From positions 1 to 26,185 of IMG/VR virus record IMGVR_UViG_3300017771_000089: a stretch of 26,185 bases of DNA. The stretch is one strand, 5' to 3'. Below, piece by piece: positions 7,910-17,803 of the stretch (position 1 is the first letter of the stretch; each line of letters begins with the position of its first letter). Below the pieces are notes generated by a model. That model made no database searches. It worked only from the letters and a program-made list of their open reading frames with translations, and had not been told where the DNA came from. This DNA is from a virus. The position numbers and the translations under genes were made by a program.

Positions 7910-8254
7910 TCAGAACTCGTAAACAAATCCAATTTTAGTGCCAAAGAGATTGTCAATATCTGAGGTCATAAAAGATGCCTCAGCATATGCGGACACACTA
8001 TCAAAGAGATCGGCCGATCCTCCAACTTTGCCTGACAATTCAAGCTCAGTGTCACCATTATCAGGGGCAACGATTGCAGGCCCTGCCTGAATATACCAGT
8101 TGTCCTTTTTGTAACCAACGTGATTGTCGATAACAGTGACACCATAATCAGAACCGGCAAAACTAGAGTTGGCTTCGACGTTCAAATATGGTCCTGCAGT
8201 GGCAGGAGCTGTAACAGCAATAAGTGCTGCGGGAAGGAAAGCAATGGGTTTCAT
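7910..8254 (-). CDS. Small exported, outer-membrane beta-barrel-like protein
   Basis: A 114-residue protein starting at ATG 8254 (MKPIAFLPAALIAVTAPATA), which reads as a typical signal peptide: basic N-terminus, hydrophobic core, and an A-x-A cleavage site near residues 18-20. The mature part has alternating polar/hydrophobic beta strands (YLNVEAN, YGVTVIDNHVGY, WYIQAGP, LELSGKVGG, SAYAEASFM) and ends GTKIGFVYEF. A terminal aromatic residue on a last strand is the classic signal of outer-membrane beta-barrels. Proteins of this kind are, from memory, also found in other marine cyanophages, where I would expect them to be virion- or envelope-associated. Function is unknown. It starts one base after the stop of the preceding gene; the 12 upstream codons of the longer frame lie inside that gene and are not used. 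Confidence 0.75.
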   Translation of the reverse strand: MKPIAFLPAALIAVTAPATAGPYLNVEANSSFAGSDYGVTVIDNHVGYKKDNWYIQAGPAIVAPDNGDTELELSGKVGGSADLFDSVSAYAEASFMTSDIDNLFGTKIGFVYEF

Positions 8255-8255
8255 G

Positions 8256-8411
8256 TTAAGCGTAGCGTTTTTTAGCGGTTTTGGCAGCACGTTTGAAGTT
8301 GCTGGCAGTCGGTGCTTTTTTAGAGCCCGGCGTCCTCATCTTCTCCCCACTGCCTGCGGCGATACGACGCCGCTTAGCGTGGATGTTAGCGTAGAGTCCA
8401 GGTTTAGCCAT
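8256..8411 (-). CDS. Small basic conserved phage protein (MAKPGLYANIHAKR type)
   Basis: A 51-residue, Lys/Arg-rich protein beginning MAKPGLYANIHAKRRRIAAG, with a GSGEKMRTPGSK-P segment and a KRAAKTAKK tail. I recognise this as a small protein recurring in many marine phages next to head genes; its role is not established. Its high positive charge suggests nucleic-acid or acidic-protein contact, for example with DNA or with the strongly acidic scaffold. The ATG lies within the last codons of the upstream 71-residue gene (8-nt overlap), and the beta-barrel-like gene starts one base after its stop, so it sits in a translationally coupled chain. Confidence 0.75.
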   Translation of the reverse strand: MAKPGLYANIHAKRRRIAAGSGEKMRTPGSKKAPTASNFKRAAKTAKKRYA

Positions 8412-11927: not shown

Positions 11928-12106
11928 TAGTTTTCCTCCATGTATTGAATGATCCACTCAACAACACTGCGTTGACCAGATCTGTACATAATTTTTTCTA
12001 TTGTATCGTCAGGTGTTGGATTAGTAGGTGGGAAAGATTCCTCAAGTGCATGGACAAGACCCTGGGAGTTCATCCCCAGGACTTCAAGCATATTGGGGGA
12101 GGTCAT
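11927..12106 (-). CDS. Small protein of unknown function after nrdB
   Basis: A 59-residue protein if started at ATG 12106 (MTSPNMLEVLGMNSQGLVHAL...), overlapping the end of the reductase small subunit by 23 nt. Upstream codons of the longer frame lie inside that gene and look non-coding, so I reject the longer start. The product is mildly acidic, with a Pro-rich turn (FPPTNPTPDD) and a final helix, IMYRSGQRSVVEWIIQYMEEN. No domain is recognised. Its stop overlaps the next ATG (TAATG) and its last codons contain the Shine-Dalgarno sequence of that gene, so translation of the two is probably coupled. Confidence 0.65.
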   Translation of the reverse strand: MTSPNMLEVLGMNSQGLVHALEESFPPTNPTPDDTIEKIMYRSGQRSVVEWIIQYMEEN

Positions 12107-12800
12107 TGTTGCTATGTTCAAAGAAAGCTGGAACTCGTGATGCTCGTGTAAAAGTAAGCTCAGGAGCTTTGCCCTCATACATCAAACGATCGCTAGAATC
12201 TAGCCAAAATTTTTTGTTTAAATATTTATCAGGGTTTGTTGCAGACAGCGGCTGCAGAACCCAGTTTATAGTTGCCTTCCTGAGACGATCAAGAGAAGGA
12301 CTGATGTTATACCCCAGCTCGCTATGAACCAAACTATTGGCAGCCACGTGAATTTGTTCATCTCTGCTTATGTCTGCGGAAACTGTTCGCATTCCAGGGT
12401 CACCAACAGCGCGGAAGAGTGGTAGAAGAACGAAGAAAATTGCACGCTCAGCGACCATGGCCTTAGTGATCGTATGATCTGGATGCGCTGTCCAAGCATC
12501 ACGTAACCGTAACGCTTCGGTCTCAGCTTTTTCATTAACCCCGTGAGCATTGGCAATGTAATTAAGTGCGAGATCATGTTTTTCCTCGTCTTTGACGTTG
12601 GAGAGTAGAAGTTCACGCGCCAACGACGGTACTTCGGTAGCAAGAGCTTCATTGATAAACTCTCCCACAGGCAGTTCCATATGTCTGATGGCAAGGGCAC
12701 GTTGTAATACTTCTTGTGCCCCCTCCTTTACTGTACCAGCAGTCGTCTGTACTGGTGTCCATGTTCTTTTTCGTTCGATTAGTTTTTGATACGGGTTCAT
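12084..12800 (-). CDS. nrdB: Ribonucleotide reductase small (beta, ferritin-like) subunit, compact type
   Basis: A 238-residue protein, far shorter than usual NrdB (about 350-380). Two ExxH motifs of the class I beta metal site are visible: E72-E-K-H75 and E148-Q-I-H151, with E118 (MVAERAIFF) between them as the bridging carboxylate. The first ligand is probably E42 or E47. The position equivalent to the usual radical tyrosine, four residues after the first ExxH histidine, is Leu79; the nearest tyrosine is Tyr81. The C-terminus ends LPQYA, with a tyrosine where beta subunits relay the radical to alpha. It should bind alpha and generate the radical. It is ATGA-coupled to the large subunit. The compact size matches, from memory, the cyanopodovirus reductases later described as class Ø. 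Confidence 0.87.
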   Translation of the reverse strand: MNPYQKLIERKRTWTPVQTTAGTVKEGAQEVLQRALAIRHMELPVGEFINEALATEVPSLARELLLSNVKDEEKHDLALNYIANAHGVNEKAETEALRLRDAWTAHPDHTITKAMVAERAIFFVLLPLFRAVGDPGMRTVSADISRDEQIHVAANSLVHSELGYNISPSLDRLRKATINWVLQPLSATNPDKYLNKKFWLDSSDRLMYEGKAPELTFTRASRVPAFFEHSNNDLPQYA

Positions 12801-14182
12801 TCTTGACAGTCACATTGTGGTTCATTAGATGACTCCATAAATAGGTCTTCAAGATAATCGTCAATGTCTCCCTGCAAAGCAGCATAGACATCTGATTTGT
12901 CTTGTGTGTCCCCCATTACTTGGAGTGAATAGTAAAGGGAGGTTTGCGAGGAATCTAACCACTCTTCAATAAAGGCTTCGTCATATGTAACGACATCACT
13001 CCAACTGTTGAAGCTATACCCGTGAAGAAGTCCCGTACGGTCAAGCAAAGACATGATGCCATCAGCAACACGTTTATAGTTTACCCAACCAACTTCTGAA
13101 CAAATTTCTACATCACCATATTCATATGTTTGGACACCGAAAGTGCCACTATCTCTGTCTACTGTACGTCCAACAGGCGGGGCGATTTCTGGTGTGCAAG
13201 TATAACCATCAAGATCCTTGCTTCGATAACTGCAGGAGGCAGTAGGTGCAATAGCAAAGGCCCGTACCATATTATGAGACCTAGCCATTGCTGCGGCAGA
13301 CTCGATACCAACGACAAACTTAGAAACCAATTCATAGGCTGGTGTGCGTACCACTTCGCCTGCATTGTGCTGCTCCAAAGCAATGCCAAATTGCTCATAG
13401 GTTACTCCGTACCGCCGTAGGAGATTTGCCAGTCCAAGCATCCCAAGTCCGACTTGTCGGTCTGTTTCTGACGGTAGATATTCTCCTGAATCGCCAACGC
13501 CAGTTCTAGCATGGAGGGTACACAGCTCCGACATGCCCTGAACAAAAGCTCCTGGGATTTCGTCGAACTCACAGGCACCGAGATTGACGTGCTGCAGCAA
13601 GCATGTTCCGCGTGAGGGCAAATACACTTCCAAACAGACGTTGCCTCGGATCCGTGTTCCTTCTTTGTCATACTTTACTTTGTTTAACCATACATCTCCA
13701 GACTTAATAGCGAAGAGAAGTTTATCTTTAAATGTACATTCTTGCCACCATTCATCAGTAATGTTGATACATCGCTTGACCCAAGGCAACTCTGATCGTG
13801 AGACAGTAATGAACTCAAGAGCATCACTGTGCCGGAGATCGAGGTGGCACACTATCGCGCCATTACGGTAGGTGCCCCCCCTCCTCAGGATCTCATTTAA
13901 GGTGCTGTAGATTTTGGCGAATGATACTGGTCCGCTTGCAACAAGCTTGTCATTTCCTTTTGTTGATTCCGTTCCTTTGGGTCGCAGTTCCGACAAGTGG
14001 ACCGCGCAGCCTGCTCCATTTCGTAAAGCATAAGAAGCAAATCTCCAGCTTGCTTCGATTCCATCAGTTCCCTCCATAGAATCTTGGACGACAAAAACCG
14101 TGCACGACACCGGCAACCTAGACGTTGGGTTATCCAACCAAGATTGGACACGTCCCGTGCGAGAAATAAGTGAGGTGGTCAT
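12797..14182 (-). CDS. nrdA: Ribonucleotide reductase large (alpha) subunit, compact type
   Basis: A 461-residue protein lacking the N-terminal ATP cone and much of the usual class I alpha (about 700-850). Catalytic features are present: SC27 of the redox pair, N181-V-C183-L-E185 (thiyl-radical cysteine with its Asn and Glu), C194 in the GTCLLQHVNL strand, APTASCSY (312-319), and the tandem tyrosines Y417-Y418 in SLYYS that relay the radical from beta. The tail ends QCDCQE, a cysteine pair for external reductant. It reduces ribonucleotides to deoxyribonucleotides. The tandem tyrosines and the adjacent beta gene show class I-type chemistry rather than B12-dependent class II, with which cyanophage reductases have been confused. 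The start is ATGA-coupled to the MazG-like gene. Confidence 0.93.
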   Translation of the reverse strand: MTTSLISRTGRVQSWLDNPTSRLPVSCTVFVVQDSMEGTDGIEASWRFASYALRNGAGCAVHLSELRPKGTESTKGNDKLVASGPVSFAKIYSTLNEILRRGGTYRNGAIVCHLDLRHSDALEFITVSRSELPWVKRCINITDEWWQECTFKDKLLFAIKSGDVWLNKVKYDKEGTRIRGNVCLEVYLPSRGTCLLQHVNLGACEFDEIPGAFVQGMSELCTLHARTGVGDSGEYLPSETDRQVGLGMLGLANLLRRYGVTYEQFGIALEQHNAGEVVRTPAYELVSKFVVGIESAAAMARSHNMVRAFAIAPTASCSYRSKDLDGYTCTPEIAPPVGRTVDRDSGTFGVQTYEYGDVEICSEVGWVNYKRVADGIMSLLDRTGLLHGYSFNSWSDVVTYDEAFIEEWLDSSQTSLYYSLQVMGDTQDKSDVYAALQGDIDDYLEDLFMESSNEPQCDCQE

Positions 14183-14550
14183 TCGATAATAAGATCTTGC
14201 AAATTAGGTTCTTTATAATTTGGTCCTTTTAGGACCTTCCCGTCAGGACGGTAGATTGGTTTGCCGTGCTCATCAAGTTTTGACATGTTTGAATCATGGA
14301 TGCGGCACATTGCTTCGTCAAGATCCCATTCTTGTGATGCAGCAAATTGGTAGCAAACATATACAAGGTCTGCTAGTTCTTTCAGTTGCTCACAATCATC
14401 TTTCATGTGGTAAGCTTCATGGAATTCAGACCATTCTTCATCGATCAAAGATTTCTGAATCGAACGCTGTTCTTTCCCAGTCATCAAAATATATGCTGAG
14501 CGGAACTGTTCGGCCATCGTCATCAGGCTGCGATGAATGTAAGAGTTCAT
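14179..14550 (-). CDS. MazG-like nucleoside triphosphate pyrophosphohydrolase
   Basis: A 123-residue protein if started at ATG 14550 (MNSYIHRSLMTMAEQF). The MazG/all-alpha NTP-pyrophosphohydrolase signature is clear: EEWSEFHEA, a short gap, then LKELADLVYVCYQF, i.e. the E-x-x-E helix followed by E-x-x-D, which bind magnesium. The C-terminal part (SKLDEHGKPIYRPDGKVLKG) matches the conserved tail seen in phage members. Cyanophage MazG hydrolyses nucleoside triphosphates to monophosphates, perhaps recycling host nucleotides for phage DNA or changing alarmone signalling. This start overlaps the DUF3310 gene by 113 nt; ATG 14523 or 14517 are alternatives with less overlap. The stop overlaps the reductase start (ATGA). 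Confidence 0.82.
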   Translation of the reverse strand: MNSYIHRSLMTMAEQFRSAYILMTGKEQRSIQKSLIDEEWSEFHEAYHMKDDCEQLKELADLVYVCYQFAASQEWDLDEAMCRIHDSNMSKLDEHGKPIYRPDGKVLKGPNYKEPNLQDLIIE

Positions 14551-14728
14551 TTTCAAGGTAGTGGATAGCTTTTTTAAGGTCTTCAACCTTTGTGTCAGGA
14601 CTTTTGTAACCGGCACGGCAAATATATTTAATAGCATTGCCGAGATGGTAACTGAGTTGTTGATCGCGGATAAAATCCCATACCTCTATGCTTCCTCGGA
14701 TGTAGTGAGAAGGGGACGGCTGGGCCAT
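14438..14728 (-). CDS. DUF3310 protein (related to T7 gp1.7 nucleotide kinase)
   Basis: A 96-residue protein. Residues 7-62 show the DUF3310 pattern: HY-x-x-G-x-IEVWDFI-D at the start, then LGNAIKYICRAGYKS and EDLKKAIHYLENEL. T7 gp1.7, a nucleotide kinase acting on dTMP/dGMP, carries a related region, so a role in nucleotide metabolism is plausible next to MazG and ribonucleotide reductase; most DUF3310 proteins are uncharacterised. The last 34 residues are acidic and overlap the MazG-like frame. The ATG overlaps the end of the NblA gene by about 43 nt. No good Shine-Dalgarno sequence is present. Confidence 0.82.
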   Translation of the reverse strand: MAQPSPSHYIRGSIEVWDFIRDQQLSYHLGNAIKYICRAGYKSPDTKVEDLKKAIHYLENELLHSSQPDDDGRTVPLSIYFDDWERTAFDSEIFDR

Positions 14729-14928
14729 TTTTTAACTAGGTTGGTAACAGTGTTTGCAAGGCAGAAGTTCTGCTTTTGCAGGGCAAGGTAAACAGTAATA
14801 ATATCTTTTTTGTCAGCGTTTTTTAACAAGTCTTCAATCTGTCGAAGCTTGAACTGTTGCTCCATCGTCAGTTCGATTACTGGCGGTGGCGGGTAGCCAT
14901 GGTATGACTCGTTCATTGATGGCGTCAT
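14686..14928 (-). CDS. nblA: NblA-like phycobilisome degradation adaptor
   Basis: An 80-residue protein from ATG 14928 (or 76 from ATG 14916). After a Pro-rich N-terminus (YHGYPPPP) the sequence IELTMEQQFKLRQIED lines up without gaps with cyanobacterial NblA, whose hallmark is (I/L)-L-x-x-EQQF-x-L, followed by the second-helix pattern VYLALQKQN...LVKKW. Cellular NblA is about 60 residues and forms a helix-loop-helix dimer that binds phycobiliproteins and the Clp protease chaperone, causing phycobilisome breakdown. Phage copies are known from freshwater cyanophages and, from memory, an uncultured marine cyanophage. The gene overlaps both the exonuclease end and the DUF3310 start. It implies a phycobilisome-containing host. 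Confidence 0.85.
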   Translation of the reverse strand: MTPSMNESYHGYPPPPVIELTMEQQFKLRQIEDLLKNADKKDIITVYLALQKQNFCLANTVTNLVKKWPSRPLLTTSEEA

Positions 14929-15604
14929 AGTCAGTATGTTGTAAGATTTTTGCAAGACGTGCATTCATCAAAGCTGTTTCTTCACCCAATTCTTTGGACT
15001 CAAAAGCTTTGACAACTGTGTCCCATGTGTAACCATCTTTGTCTAACAAAGCAATAGCACGTTTAACGCCAATACCAGGAACGCCGCCATATCCATCTGT
15101 TTGGTCACCGGCAAGTGTTTGAATCAAATGCCAACGCATACCTTCCTCCTCTGTAACGTCAATGGTTTCATCAAGGTTGTATAGTTTGCCAGGGATTTGA
15201 CGCATGTCTTTGTCTGGGCTGACAATGATGTTGCCAGGTTCAAAGGTTGCGTAGATACCCATAGCATCGTCGGCTTCTAGTTCAGGAATGCGAACTACTT
15301 TGTAACGTTGATCAAGTTTGTTGATAACTCGCCTATAACCACAAGGCTTTTTTCGATTACGGTGACCCTTGTAATCTGGGTAAATTTTTTTTCTAAAATT
15401 CTTAGAGTCACTAAAAAACAGAATCACTTCTGGCGTGTCCCACATGAAGTGCTGTTTGATCTTTGTCAGTTCACGCTCAACACTTTTCAGTGCTTCACTA
15501 AACCTGCTGATGACAACAATAACGTCGTCACCCCAATCAATTTCATCCTCTGCTGCAGCACAGCATTTGTAGACAATAAAGTCAGCGTCAACTAGCAGTT
15601 TCAT
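14834..15604 (-). CDS. 5'-3' exonuclease (gp6-like, FEN family)
   Basis: A 256-residue protein (T7 gp6 is 300). The flap-nuclease carboxylates are visible in order: D6 and D8 (LLVDADFI), D66 (FFSDS), E110/D112/D113 (ELEADDAMG), D131/D133 (SPDKDM), D167/D170 (AGDQTDGY), followed by the helix-hairpin-helix GVPGIGVKRA at 174-183. It degrades DNA 5'-3', removing primers and, in T7, host DNA together with endonuclease I. The ATG overlaps the stop of the homing endonuclease gene (ATGA). The 3' end overlaps the NblA gene by about 95 nt. Confidence 0.94.
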   Translation of the reverse strand: MKLLVDADFIVYKCCAAAEDEIDWGDDVIVVISRFSEALKSVERELTKIKQHFMWDTPEVILFFSDSKNFRKKIYPDYKGHRNRKKPCGYRRVINKLDQRYKVVRIPELEADDAMGIYATFEPGNIIVSPDKDMRQIPGKLYNLDETIDVTEEEGMRWHLIQTLAGDQTDGYGGVPGIGVKRAIALLDKDGYTWDTVVKAFESKELGEETALMNARLAKILQHTDYDAINERVIPWLPATASNRTDDGATVQASTD

Positions 15605-16002
15605 TTTTTAGAGTGGTACCAGGCAAAGAATTCGTCGCACTTAGCACGGCGACGTTCGTGCATGTAGGGATAGAAACGGATGATCAAATCGTGAATGTCT
15701 TTACGTCGGTGCAAAGACCAAAGACCATGAGGTTTGTGGTGTTCTTTGTCTGAAGGATATTTACGAAGACCACTAACTTTTCCGACGCAATTGATAGCTT
15801 CGTAAAATGACCACAGAACATCCATGTCAGTCATTTTAACTTTCATCTCCCAACAATCACTTGATTTTTTATAAGTGAGACAACCTTCACCTTCGAAGAT
15901 TCCGATAGCCCAGGCATAAGGGTCAGTGAACGTCAGCCCAACTGTATCCTTGCTTGGCTTCTGCTGCGATTGGTATTCTGAGATTGTAGTATTGTCCTGC
16001 AT
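15601..16002 (-). CDS. LAGLIDADG-type homing endonuclease
   Basis: About 133 residues if started at ATG 16002; the only ATG starts in frame lie inside the 3' end of the polymerase gene (16062, 16044 and 16002), so the true start is uncertain. Residues 30-41 (AWAIGIFEGEGCL) are a clear LAGLIDADG-like motif: a helix with G-x-F-E-G-E-G supplying the metal-binding acid. They are followed by a strand-helix layout (WEMKVKMTDMDVL, GLWSLHRRKDI) typical of a single-motif, dimeric homing endonuclease. Such enzymes cut an allele lacking the gene and spread by repair. It is inserted between polymerase and exonuclease, is ATGA-coupled to the latter, and is not in an intron. Cleavage of the polymerase region of competing phages is inferred. 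Confidence 0.8.
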   Translation of the reverse strand: MQDNTTISEYQSQQKPSKDTVGLTFTDPYAWAIGIFEGEGCLTYKKSSDCWEMKVKMTDMDVLWSFYEAINCVGKVSGLRKYPSDKEHHKPHGLWSLHRRKDIHDLIIRFYPYMHERRRAKCDEFFAWYHSKK

Positions 16003-17203
16003 CTGCTGCAGTACGTTCGAGGCAAGTTGATAAGGAGTTTGCATAATTTGGGTGAGTTTCAAACTGCAGTTCGTCGTGGATAAATGCGAGCTGATTGCAC
16101 GGTATATCCAGTTCTTTTGTTGCTGTATCGTTCAGTACCATCCAGCGTTTTGCAATGACGCCAGCGCCTGACTGCAGTAAATAATTAAGTGCTTTGTGTT
16201 GACTATCAACTTTAATTGGTCTTCCGTCAATAGATTTTACGTAACCTCTTTGGCTAGACTCTTTAATTGCTGCAAGTAATTCTGCAAGACCATCAATAGC
16301 TAACACAAATGCGTTTCTAATTTCTGTACCTTTTTTCTTTGCAGCTGTGTCTTTTAGGGTAGAGTCAAAAGATTGTCCGATTTTGACGTCTCCGGCTCCA
16401 TAAAGGAAGGCGTAGCTAACGGTTTTGACAGCACGTCTGGAGATTCCAATTTTGTCGGCATTAACTTGGTGAATGTCGCCATTGATGAGAATATCCGCGT
16501 AGCGACCCCCGTCATAGCGTGCAAGGTAATGAGCGAGCATCCTAAGTTCAATACCAGCAAGGTCGGCACCAACCATGATGTTCCCTGGCGTTGGTTTGAA
16601 GAGTTGTCTACAGTCATGATCAGAACTTACCTGAGAAATGTTCGGTTTACGATGTGCACAACGATGTGTGTTAGTTGCAACTGAGCAGTGATGATGTACT
16701 CGACTAGCAGTCGTACATAGCTTGAGCCATGCGTTCGTGCCTTGCGAGATCATCCCCAATTTCTTTGTAATAGTTAGACACTTCAGAAAGCCCTCGGCAA
16801 TCGTAATCCCACTCGAAGCAACTTCCTTGAGTACATTCTCGTCGATTACTGCTTTGCCCGTTTCTGTTCGTAATGTTGGTTTCCATCCGTAATGTTCTCC
16901 CAAGAACCATGCAATATGGTCCCGTGATGTGGGGTTAAGTTCAGTGATGCGGGTAAATGTTGCTCCGGCGATATACCCGTAGCGTCTGTTATTTGCCTTA
17001 GGAGTGAATTCCGATCTTGGTGCGTAAGCGTGCCCGTCGCGTAATACTGCACAAGTTTCTTCAAGTTCTGCTCTGAGAGAAGATGACAATTCCCATGCAG
17101 CGCGTTCATCAAAATACCATCCATGAAGTTCTTGTTGGGTGAGAAGTTGGGCAACCTGGTGTTCTAATTTTACGAACTCAGGTATTTGTGGAAGTGGTCG
17201 CAT
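15923..17203 (-). CDS. DNA polymerase, family A polymerase domain (gp5 C-terminal part)
   Basis: A 426-residue protein from ATG 17203 (MRPLPQIPEFVKLEHQ). The polymerase domain is complete: LTQQELHGWYFD, NPTSRDHI, motif A around D214 (GADLAGIELRMLAHYLARYD), motif B R-AVKTVSYAFLYGAG with K260, Y264 and Y268, motif C H376-D377-E378, and a C-terminus GYSWADVH like that of T7 (GPNWAICH). Y264 corresponds to T7 Tyr526 (Pol I position 762). The region matching the T7 thioredoxin-binding insertion is about 38 residues shorter. The 3'-5' exonuclease domain is encoded separately just upstream, overlapping by 34 nt in another frame. I see no classical -1 slippery heptamer or Shine-Dalgarno sequence, so both independent initiation and a one-base lesion remain possible. 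Confidence 0.92.
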   Translation of the reverse strand: MRPLPQIPEFVKLEHQVAQLLTQQELHGWYFDERAAWELSSSLRAELEETCAVLRDGHAYAPRSEFTPKANNRRYGYIAGATFTRITELNPTSRDHIAWFLGEHYGWKPTLRTETGKAVIDENVLKEVASSGITIAEGFLKCLTITKKLGMISQGTNAWLKLCTTASRVHHHCSVATNTHRCAHRKPNISQVSSDHDCRQLFKPTPGNIMVGADLAGIELRMLAHYLARYDGGRYADILINGDIHQVNADKIGISRRAVKTVSYAFLYGAGDVKIGQSFDSTLKDTAAKKKGTEIRNAFVLAIDGLAELLAAIKESSQRGYVKSIDGRPIKVDSQHKALNYLLQSGAGVIAKRWMVLNDTATKELDIPCNQLAFIHDELQFETHPNYANSLSTCLERTAADAGQYYNLRIPIAAEAKQGYSWADVH

Positions 17204-17691
17204 AGTTTGCGAGTGACGTTTACATCTTGTACGCAATAATCTTGCATCTCTTGACTCCACTCTTGCCAGTCAGTGTTTTTTCCAAAGGACCCTTTGTATT
17301 CTCCCAACCTATACCCGTAGGATTCAAGTGAATGCCTACCGTATAGTTGTAGTGGCATTTGGTCCCAGTTACGGTCTTGATCAACTTTGATCATATCTGT
17401 GTGATACAGACGCGACAACAACAAAGTGTCTACAACCATGGCGGTTGGTGAGAACCACGAGTAAATCTTGCGAAGACAGGGGATGTCGTAACCGATGACA
17501 TTGTGTCCAACAATGACGTCAGCATCTTCGAGCCTTTGTACACCACGGGTGATCGGCTCAGCGTTACCTTGGTCGTTGTAAACAATCGTCTCACCAGTTT
17601 CCTGCTCATGAATAACAAGACAGTGGATCTTGGTAACATCATTTAGAAGACCGTTGCTTTCTAGATCGAATACTAGAGTGTTTCCAGACAT
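17170..17691 (-). CDS. DNA polymerase 3'-5' exonuclease domain (gp5 N-terminal part, separate ORF)
   Basis: A 173-residue protein from ATG 17691 (MSGNTLVFDLESNGL). All three DnaQ-type motifs are present: Exo I D9-L-E11, Exo II around N64 and D69 (GHNVIGYDI), Exo III Y152-x-x-x-D156 (DYCVQDVNVT). This equals the T7 gp5 proofreading domain, and the ORF ends (KYLSS) exactly where the linker to the polymerase domain should follow. It should proofread, if it docks on the polymerase protein. A GTG at 17715 is an alternative start. The stop lies 34 nt inside the polymerase ORF, which is in the -1 frame. Confidence 0.92.
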   Translation of the reverse strand: MSGNTLVFDLESNGLLNDVTKIHCLVIHEQETGETIVYNDQGNAEPITRGVQRLEDADVIVGHNVIGYDIPCLRKIYSWFSPTAMVVDTLLLSRLYHTDMIKVDQDRNWDQMPLQLYGRHSLESYGYRLGEYKGSFGKNTDWQEWSQEMQDYCVQDVNVTRKLCDHFHKYLSS

Positions 17692-17803
17692 AAGTCTTGT
17701 CAACAAATTGTGCACGTTTCACCATTTCAGGTGTGGGTGGGTTAGGTCGTTTAAGTTCAGAAATCTGGAATGTATTCAGGCTCCGTTGTTGATTTAGTTT
17801 CAT
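17639..17803 (-). CDS. Possible small overlapping gene between primase/helicase and exonuclease
   Basis: A 54-residue open frame (MKLNQQRSLNTFQISELKRP, then NPPTPEMVKRAQFVDKTYVW and a basic tail). It starts inside the end of the helicase gene, spans the gap of about 65 nt between helicase and exonuclease, and ends inside the exonuclease gene. The segment translated in the gap (ELKRPNPPTPEMVKRAQFVDK) looks like real protein. T7 has small genes (4.1-4.7) in the same place. No Shine-Dalgarno sequence or known family is seen, and much of the frame overlaps other genes, so this is tentative. An inner ATG at 17725 is another possible start. Confidence 0.35.
   Translation of the reverse strand: MKLNQQRSLNTFQISELKRPNPPTPEMVKRAQFVDKTYVWKHSSIRSRKQRSSK

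Follow-up and report, generated by a model that had tools for sequence, protein, structure and literature searches.

A short gene in a T7-like cyanophage genome encodes an NblA-family protein; in cyanobacteria, proteins of this kind serve to direct the light-harvesting antenna to a protease. The assignment is supported by a Pfam match, a predicted two-helix hairpin and a fixed gene order, which confirm the observation made in a first-pass annotation and support its interpretation as an NblA placed between the exonuclease and DUF3310 genes. The gene (80 codons) is located at positions 14686–14928 on the minus strand of the window, a term used here for the whole stretch of DNA analysed (26,185 bases, 44% GC, a linear IMG/VR virus record). 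It is clearly a further member of a published family and nothing new in kind; the window thereby adds one well-supported example of viral NblA, a protein that dismantles the host antenna.

Genome setting and extent of the gene

The window is a section of a T7-like cyanophage genome, with almost all of its genes on the minus strand. Following the direction of transcription, the gene order starts with a T7-like RNA polymerase, a gp2.5-like ssDNA-binding protein, an endonuclease and a primase/helicase, continues with DNA polymerase (two overlapping ORFs), an HNH endonuclease, a 5′-3′ exonuclease, the nblA-like gene and a DUF3310 gene, and ends with a MazG-type pyrophosphohydrolase, both ribonucleotide reductase subunits, a head-tail adaptor and the major head protein. 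The closest records are the marine T7-like cyanophages S-SBP1 and MedDCM-OCT-S28-C3 (an uncultured Mediterranean phage), and the closest isolates have Synechococcus as host. Five minus-strand genes around the nblA-like gene were identified by profile matches: the upstream T7-like 5′-3′ exonuclease (14834–15604; PF02739, 5.1e-11; phrog_107, 7.6e-66), the downstream DUF3310 protein (14438–14728; PF11753, 2.8e-15), a MazG/PRA-PH-type nucleotide pyrophosphohydrolase (14179–14637; PF01503, 2.3e-8; phrog_671, 1.8e-34), the ribonucleotide reductase large subunit (12797–14182; PF02867, 2.5e-18; phrog_367, 5.6e-48) and the ribonucleotide reductase class Ia beta subunit (12084–12800; phrog_6799, 8.3e-126).

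Some other minus-strand genes of the window were recorded in passing. The DNA polymerase is divided over a 3′-5′ exonuclease part (17170–17715) and a polymerase part (15923–17260), and this split is annotated likewise in S-TIP37 and P-SSP7. The HNH endonuclease (15601–16062; phrog_5046) is inserted between the DNA polymerase and the exonuclease and overlaps the 3′ end of the polymerase. Flanked by head genes, a 126-aa protein with a signal-peptide-like start (7910–8290) belongs to phrog_417, of unknown function.

The nblA-like ORF runs from an ATG at 14928 to a stop codon ending at 14686, and its product is MTPSMNESYHGYPPPPVIELTMEQQFKLRQIEDLLKNADKKDIITVYLALQKQNFCLANTVTNLVKKWPSRPLLTTSEEA. The positions given in the first-pass annotation were correct, and have to be completed with the minus strand and with the overlap of the gene with both neighbours, which takes up 138 of its 243 nt. 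Its first 95 nt (14834–14928, minus strand) overlap the 3′ end of the exonuclease in a different frame, the relative frame being the same in all 84 sequences compared. At its own 3′ end, the ORF coordinates give a 43-nt overlap with the DUF3310 gene (14686–14728, minus strand), where synonymous changes are depressed. A start at or near 14928 was found in 80 relatives, as ATG in 75 and as TTG in five. Two other ATG codons, at 14964 (an unlikely start, giving a 92-aa version) and at 14916, were ruled out, since neither is conserved in relatives. As the gene lies within the replication/nucleotide block and overlaps both neighbours, it is probably co-expressed with the exonuclease and DUF3310 genes; promoter and terminator scans around it returned nothing beyond what was obtained with shuffled sequence.

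The N-terminal segment (residues 1–16, MTPSMNESYHGYPPPP; 14881–14928, minus strand) lies wholly within the exonuclease 3′ end. Residues 1–6 have a pLDDT below 50, thus low predicted order, and G11, P13, P14 and P16 are invariant among relatives. The proposal that a Pro-rich N-terminal extension sets this protein apart from cellular NblA does not hold: the NblA of S. elongatus also has a Pro-rich stretch, PPLPDFSLSVEQQF, before its EQQF helix, matching PPPPVIELTMEQQF of the window protein, and only the roughly 11 residues preceding this stretch are extra. These residues and a short C-terminal tail are the additions, and both coincide with the gene overlaps.

Family membership and predicted fold

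A search with the Pfam NblA profile (PF04485), which the first-pass annotation had named as a check, gave a match of 28.4 bits, exceeding the gathering score of 25. The matched domain comprises residues 19–67 (profile positions 1–49 of 50; 14728–14874, minus strand). This score is low in absolute terms and far below those of cellular members, Nostoc NblA reaching 88 bits. The same profile was matched by 34 of 35 diverse phage relatives and, across 14 control genomes, solely in the cyanobacterium S. elongatus. When scored with a profile built from 31 cellular NblAs, the window protein reached 26.5 bits, compared to 14.3 bits for the best of 20,000 shuffles and 6.3 bits for the next-best ORF of the window, which excludes a chance match. 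With the NCBIfam equivalog NF045916 (S. elongatus-type NblA) it scored 21.5 bits, below a 100-bit cut-off that is narrower than the NblA family, as genuine NblAs of Nostoc, Calothrix and Aphanothece score just 32–33.

Profile comparisons in both directions led to the same family. When the profile of the phage relatives was compared to that of the 31 cellular NblAs, the match had a probability of 96% (E 4e-9) over 55 columns, including both helices. In the PDB the best match of the phage profile was the NblA structure 3cs5 (2.8e-5), and 1ojh, 2q8v and 2qdo were also found. A reciprocal search of 244 cyanobacterial genomes with the phage profile returned a single match in each of 16 genomes, and the matches translated as ORFs (12 loci) were NblA sequences. 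The window protein also matched PHROG 27006 (E 6.6e-21, residues 22–72), which corresponds to cyanopodovirus NblA and is listed as of unknown function. The segment IELTMEQQFKLRQ is present in the product, and the gapless alignment to cellular NblA that had been reported for it, second helix included, extends over residues 17–67 and covers both helices.

The hairpin fold that had been put forward as a further check was indeed predicted. AlphaFold2, run as a single chain on 33 relatives, placed helices at residues 22–35 and 40–67 with a pLDDT of about 94. Helix 1 (14824–14865, minus strand) carries the EQQF motif, while helix 2 (14728–14811, minus strand) ends in NLVKK. A control model of Nostoc NblA, based on 31 cellular sequences, had helices at 9–23 and 27–55, so that the phage layout equals the control shifted by 13 residues, the same offset as in the sequence alignment. 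Foldseek found no PDB match for the phage model, and likewise none for the genuine Nostoc NblA model; therefore this negative result is uninformative for hairpins of 65–80 residues. Among viral models, Foldseek gave one strong match, a 79-aa protein with 60% identity, which adds nothing on function.

Compared to cyanobacterial NblA (PF04485; 1ojh, 2q8v, 2qdo, 3cs5), the window protein shares the EQQF helix, a gapless two-helix hairpin of equal length and the LxK near the end of helix 2, at about 22–33% identity, but has about 11 extra N-terminal and about 12 extra C-terminal residues. The EQQF motif occupies residues 23–26, at the start of helix 1, and none of 35 relatives varies at E23 or Q24. 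In the C-terminal part, all 80 relatives compared have L64 and W68, while K66 is kept in 65 and replaced by T, Q or S in the others (T in S-TIP37). In the alignment, L64 and K66 correspond to Leu51 and Lys53 of Anabaena NblA, C-terminal residues that bind phycobiliproteins.

Distribution among cyanophages

The expectation that such a gene would be a rarity among phages was not borne out, as relatives of the window protein are encoded on 221 IMG/VR contigs. Where the flanks allowed the comparison, gene order was invariant, with an upstream exonuclease in all 74 loci that could be assessed and a downstream DUF3310 in all 78. The gene was present in each of the phage records whose exonuclease shares 55% identity or more with that of the window. 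It is therefore a clade-wide gene, fixed in this clade of marine T7-like cyanophages, rather than a rare insertion. Syn5, P60, S-CBP42, S-TIP28, SS120-1, P-SSP10, 9515-10a and NATL2A-133 were not among the matches. Being short, overlapping its neighbours over more than half of its length, listed in PHROGs as of unknown function and unannotated in several reference records, nblA is easily missed; it is present yet unannotated in S-TIP37 (MH540083), S-RIP2 (HQ317389) and MedDCM-OCT-S28-C3 (AP013539). In S-RIP1 (HQ317388, about 34752–34966), nblA and the exonuclease are each found in two pieces, which may reflect frameshifts in the sequence record or disrupted genes.

Other viral NblAs can be compared with that of the window. 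The NblAs of marine T7-like cyanophages (S-TIP37, S-CBP4, S-RIP2, KBS-P-1A and S-SBP1; PHROG 27006) have the same start and the same locus between the exonuclease and DUF3310/RNR; with 63–73% identity for the best records, they differ from the window protein by sequence divergence only. Viral NblA is also carried by the freshwater Microcystis phages Ma-LMM01 and MaMV-DC and by Planktothrix phage PaV-LD, and in Ma-LMM01 the gene overlaps its neighbour nrdA (PMC4103541), but in the published tree these three form a separate lineage (PMC9602691). Their NblAs did not appear among the phage matches listed by tblastn with the window protein. The marine T4-like/TIM5-like cyanophages S-SCSM1 and S-TIM5 have an NblA as well, which groups with picocyanobacterial nblA, apart from the podovirus group (PMC9602691). 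Lineage placement was taken from that published tree, about 50 aligned residues being too few for a tree of our own.

A homologous gene is found at the same place in P-SSP7, P-SSP3 and NATL1A-7, which are known or recorded as Prochlorococcus phages, and in P-SSP2. This P-SSP7-type homologue, present on 95 IMG/VR contigs, is plainly homologous to the group of the window (E 8.9e-41) and weakly homologous to cellular NblA (probability 88%); the three members tested (P-SSP7, NATL1A-7 and P-SSP2) did not match PF04485. The Prochlorococcus-phage homologues keep the locus, the start and an EQDF motif, mostly have E, T, N, Q or A at the position of K66, and in many cases have a long C-terminal tail.

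Proposed role and alternative explanations

Very probably the gene encodes a phage NblA that, in infected cells, delivers the host phycobilisome to the Clp protease. This reading joins the family membership, predicted fold, conservation, fixed gene order and selection found here with dimerisation, ClpC and phycobiliprotein binding and antenna loss, carried over from cellular and other viral NblAs. In cellular NblA, the EQQF region of helix 1 has been reported to bind ClpC and the helix 2 region to bind phycobiliprotein (PMC7966870). By analogy, the short helix-loop-helix protein would be expected to form a dimer, a four-helix bundle in which the conserved EQQF helix would bind ClpC and the end of helix 2 phycobiliproteins, a bridging that would pass the phycobilisome to the Clp protease in the infected host. 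The likely gain for the phage would be amino acids for its own proteins, together with less light energy absorbed by the dying cell. The published family was described by Nadel 2019, in which nblA was predicted in 14 cyanopodovirus isolates and in S-TIM5, and S. elongatus PCC 7942 lost pigment when it expressed a viral nblA of marine origin (as summarised in PMC9602691). In Nadel 2025 (Nature), “viral NblA” was estimated to lower marine light capture by up to 5% (as summarised in PMC12892361).

The protein could also be an NblA homologue that still bridges ClpC to a target, but acts in infection mainly on something other than, or in addition to, the phycobilisome. This is suggested by the relatives retained at the equivalent locus in P-SSP7, P-SSP3 and NATL1A-7, whose Prochlorococcus hosts have neither phycobilisomes nor nblA (PMC7439483), and for which the target may be leftover phycobiliprotein or another protein. 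However, similarity to PF04485 is undetectable and K66 is changed in the Prochlorococcus-phage forms, whereas the Synechococcus-phage forms, including that of the window, keep the Pfam match and mostly K66, as expected if the type found in the window still acts on phycobilisomes. As marine viral NblA, moreover, does cause pigment loss (PMC9602691), we regard a different main target of the window protein as unlikely. The broader idea that the family as a whole is a cyanophage Clp adaptor whose target goes beyond the phycobilisome, which concerns the relatives rather than the window, is put forward as a tentative and rather unlikely one; if true, the drifted homologue in Prochlorococcus T7-like phages may present ClpC with a different host protein.

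Two explanations would deny the phycobilisome-directed NblA altogether. The protein is short, consists of two helices, has low absolute scores and finds no PDB match with Foldseek, all of which would suit an unrelated helical hairpin with an EQQF motif acquired by chance; yet the Foldseek negative is shared by the control NblA, the distance between the profile score and that of the best shuffle is large, the match is gapless across both helices, the helix boundaries are identical to those of the control once offset by 13, and reciprocal searches return NblA, making such a coincidence highly improbable. Even less credence can be given to an untranslated ORF that merely mirrors the exonuclease and DUF3310 genes with which it overlaps, in spite of the extent of these overlaps and of its missing annotation in several phage records. 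In the exonuclease overlap, the nblA frame is the better conserved of the two (mean pairwise identity among the 84 sequences 67%, against 49% for the exonuclease frame), which points to selection of the N-terminal segment as protein, and all relatives share the start and the frame. Over the 34 codons free of any overlap the pooled dN/dS was 0.07: the nblA-like gene is under purifying selection, clear in this non-overlapping part.
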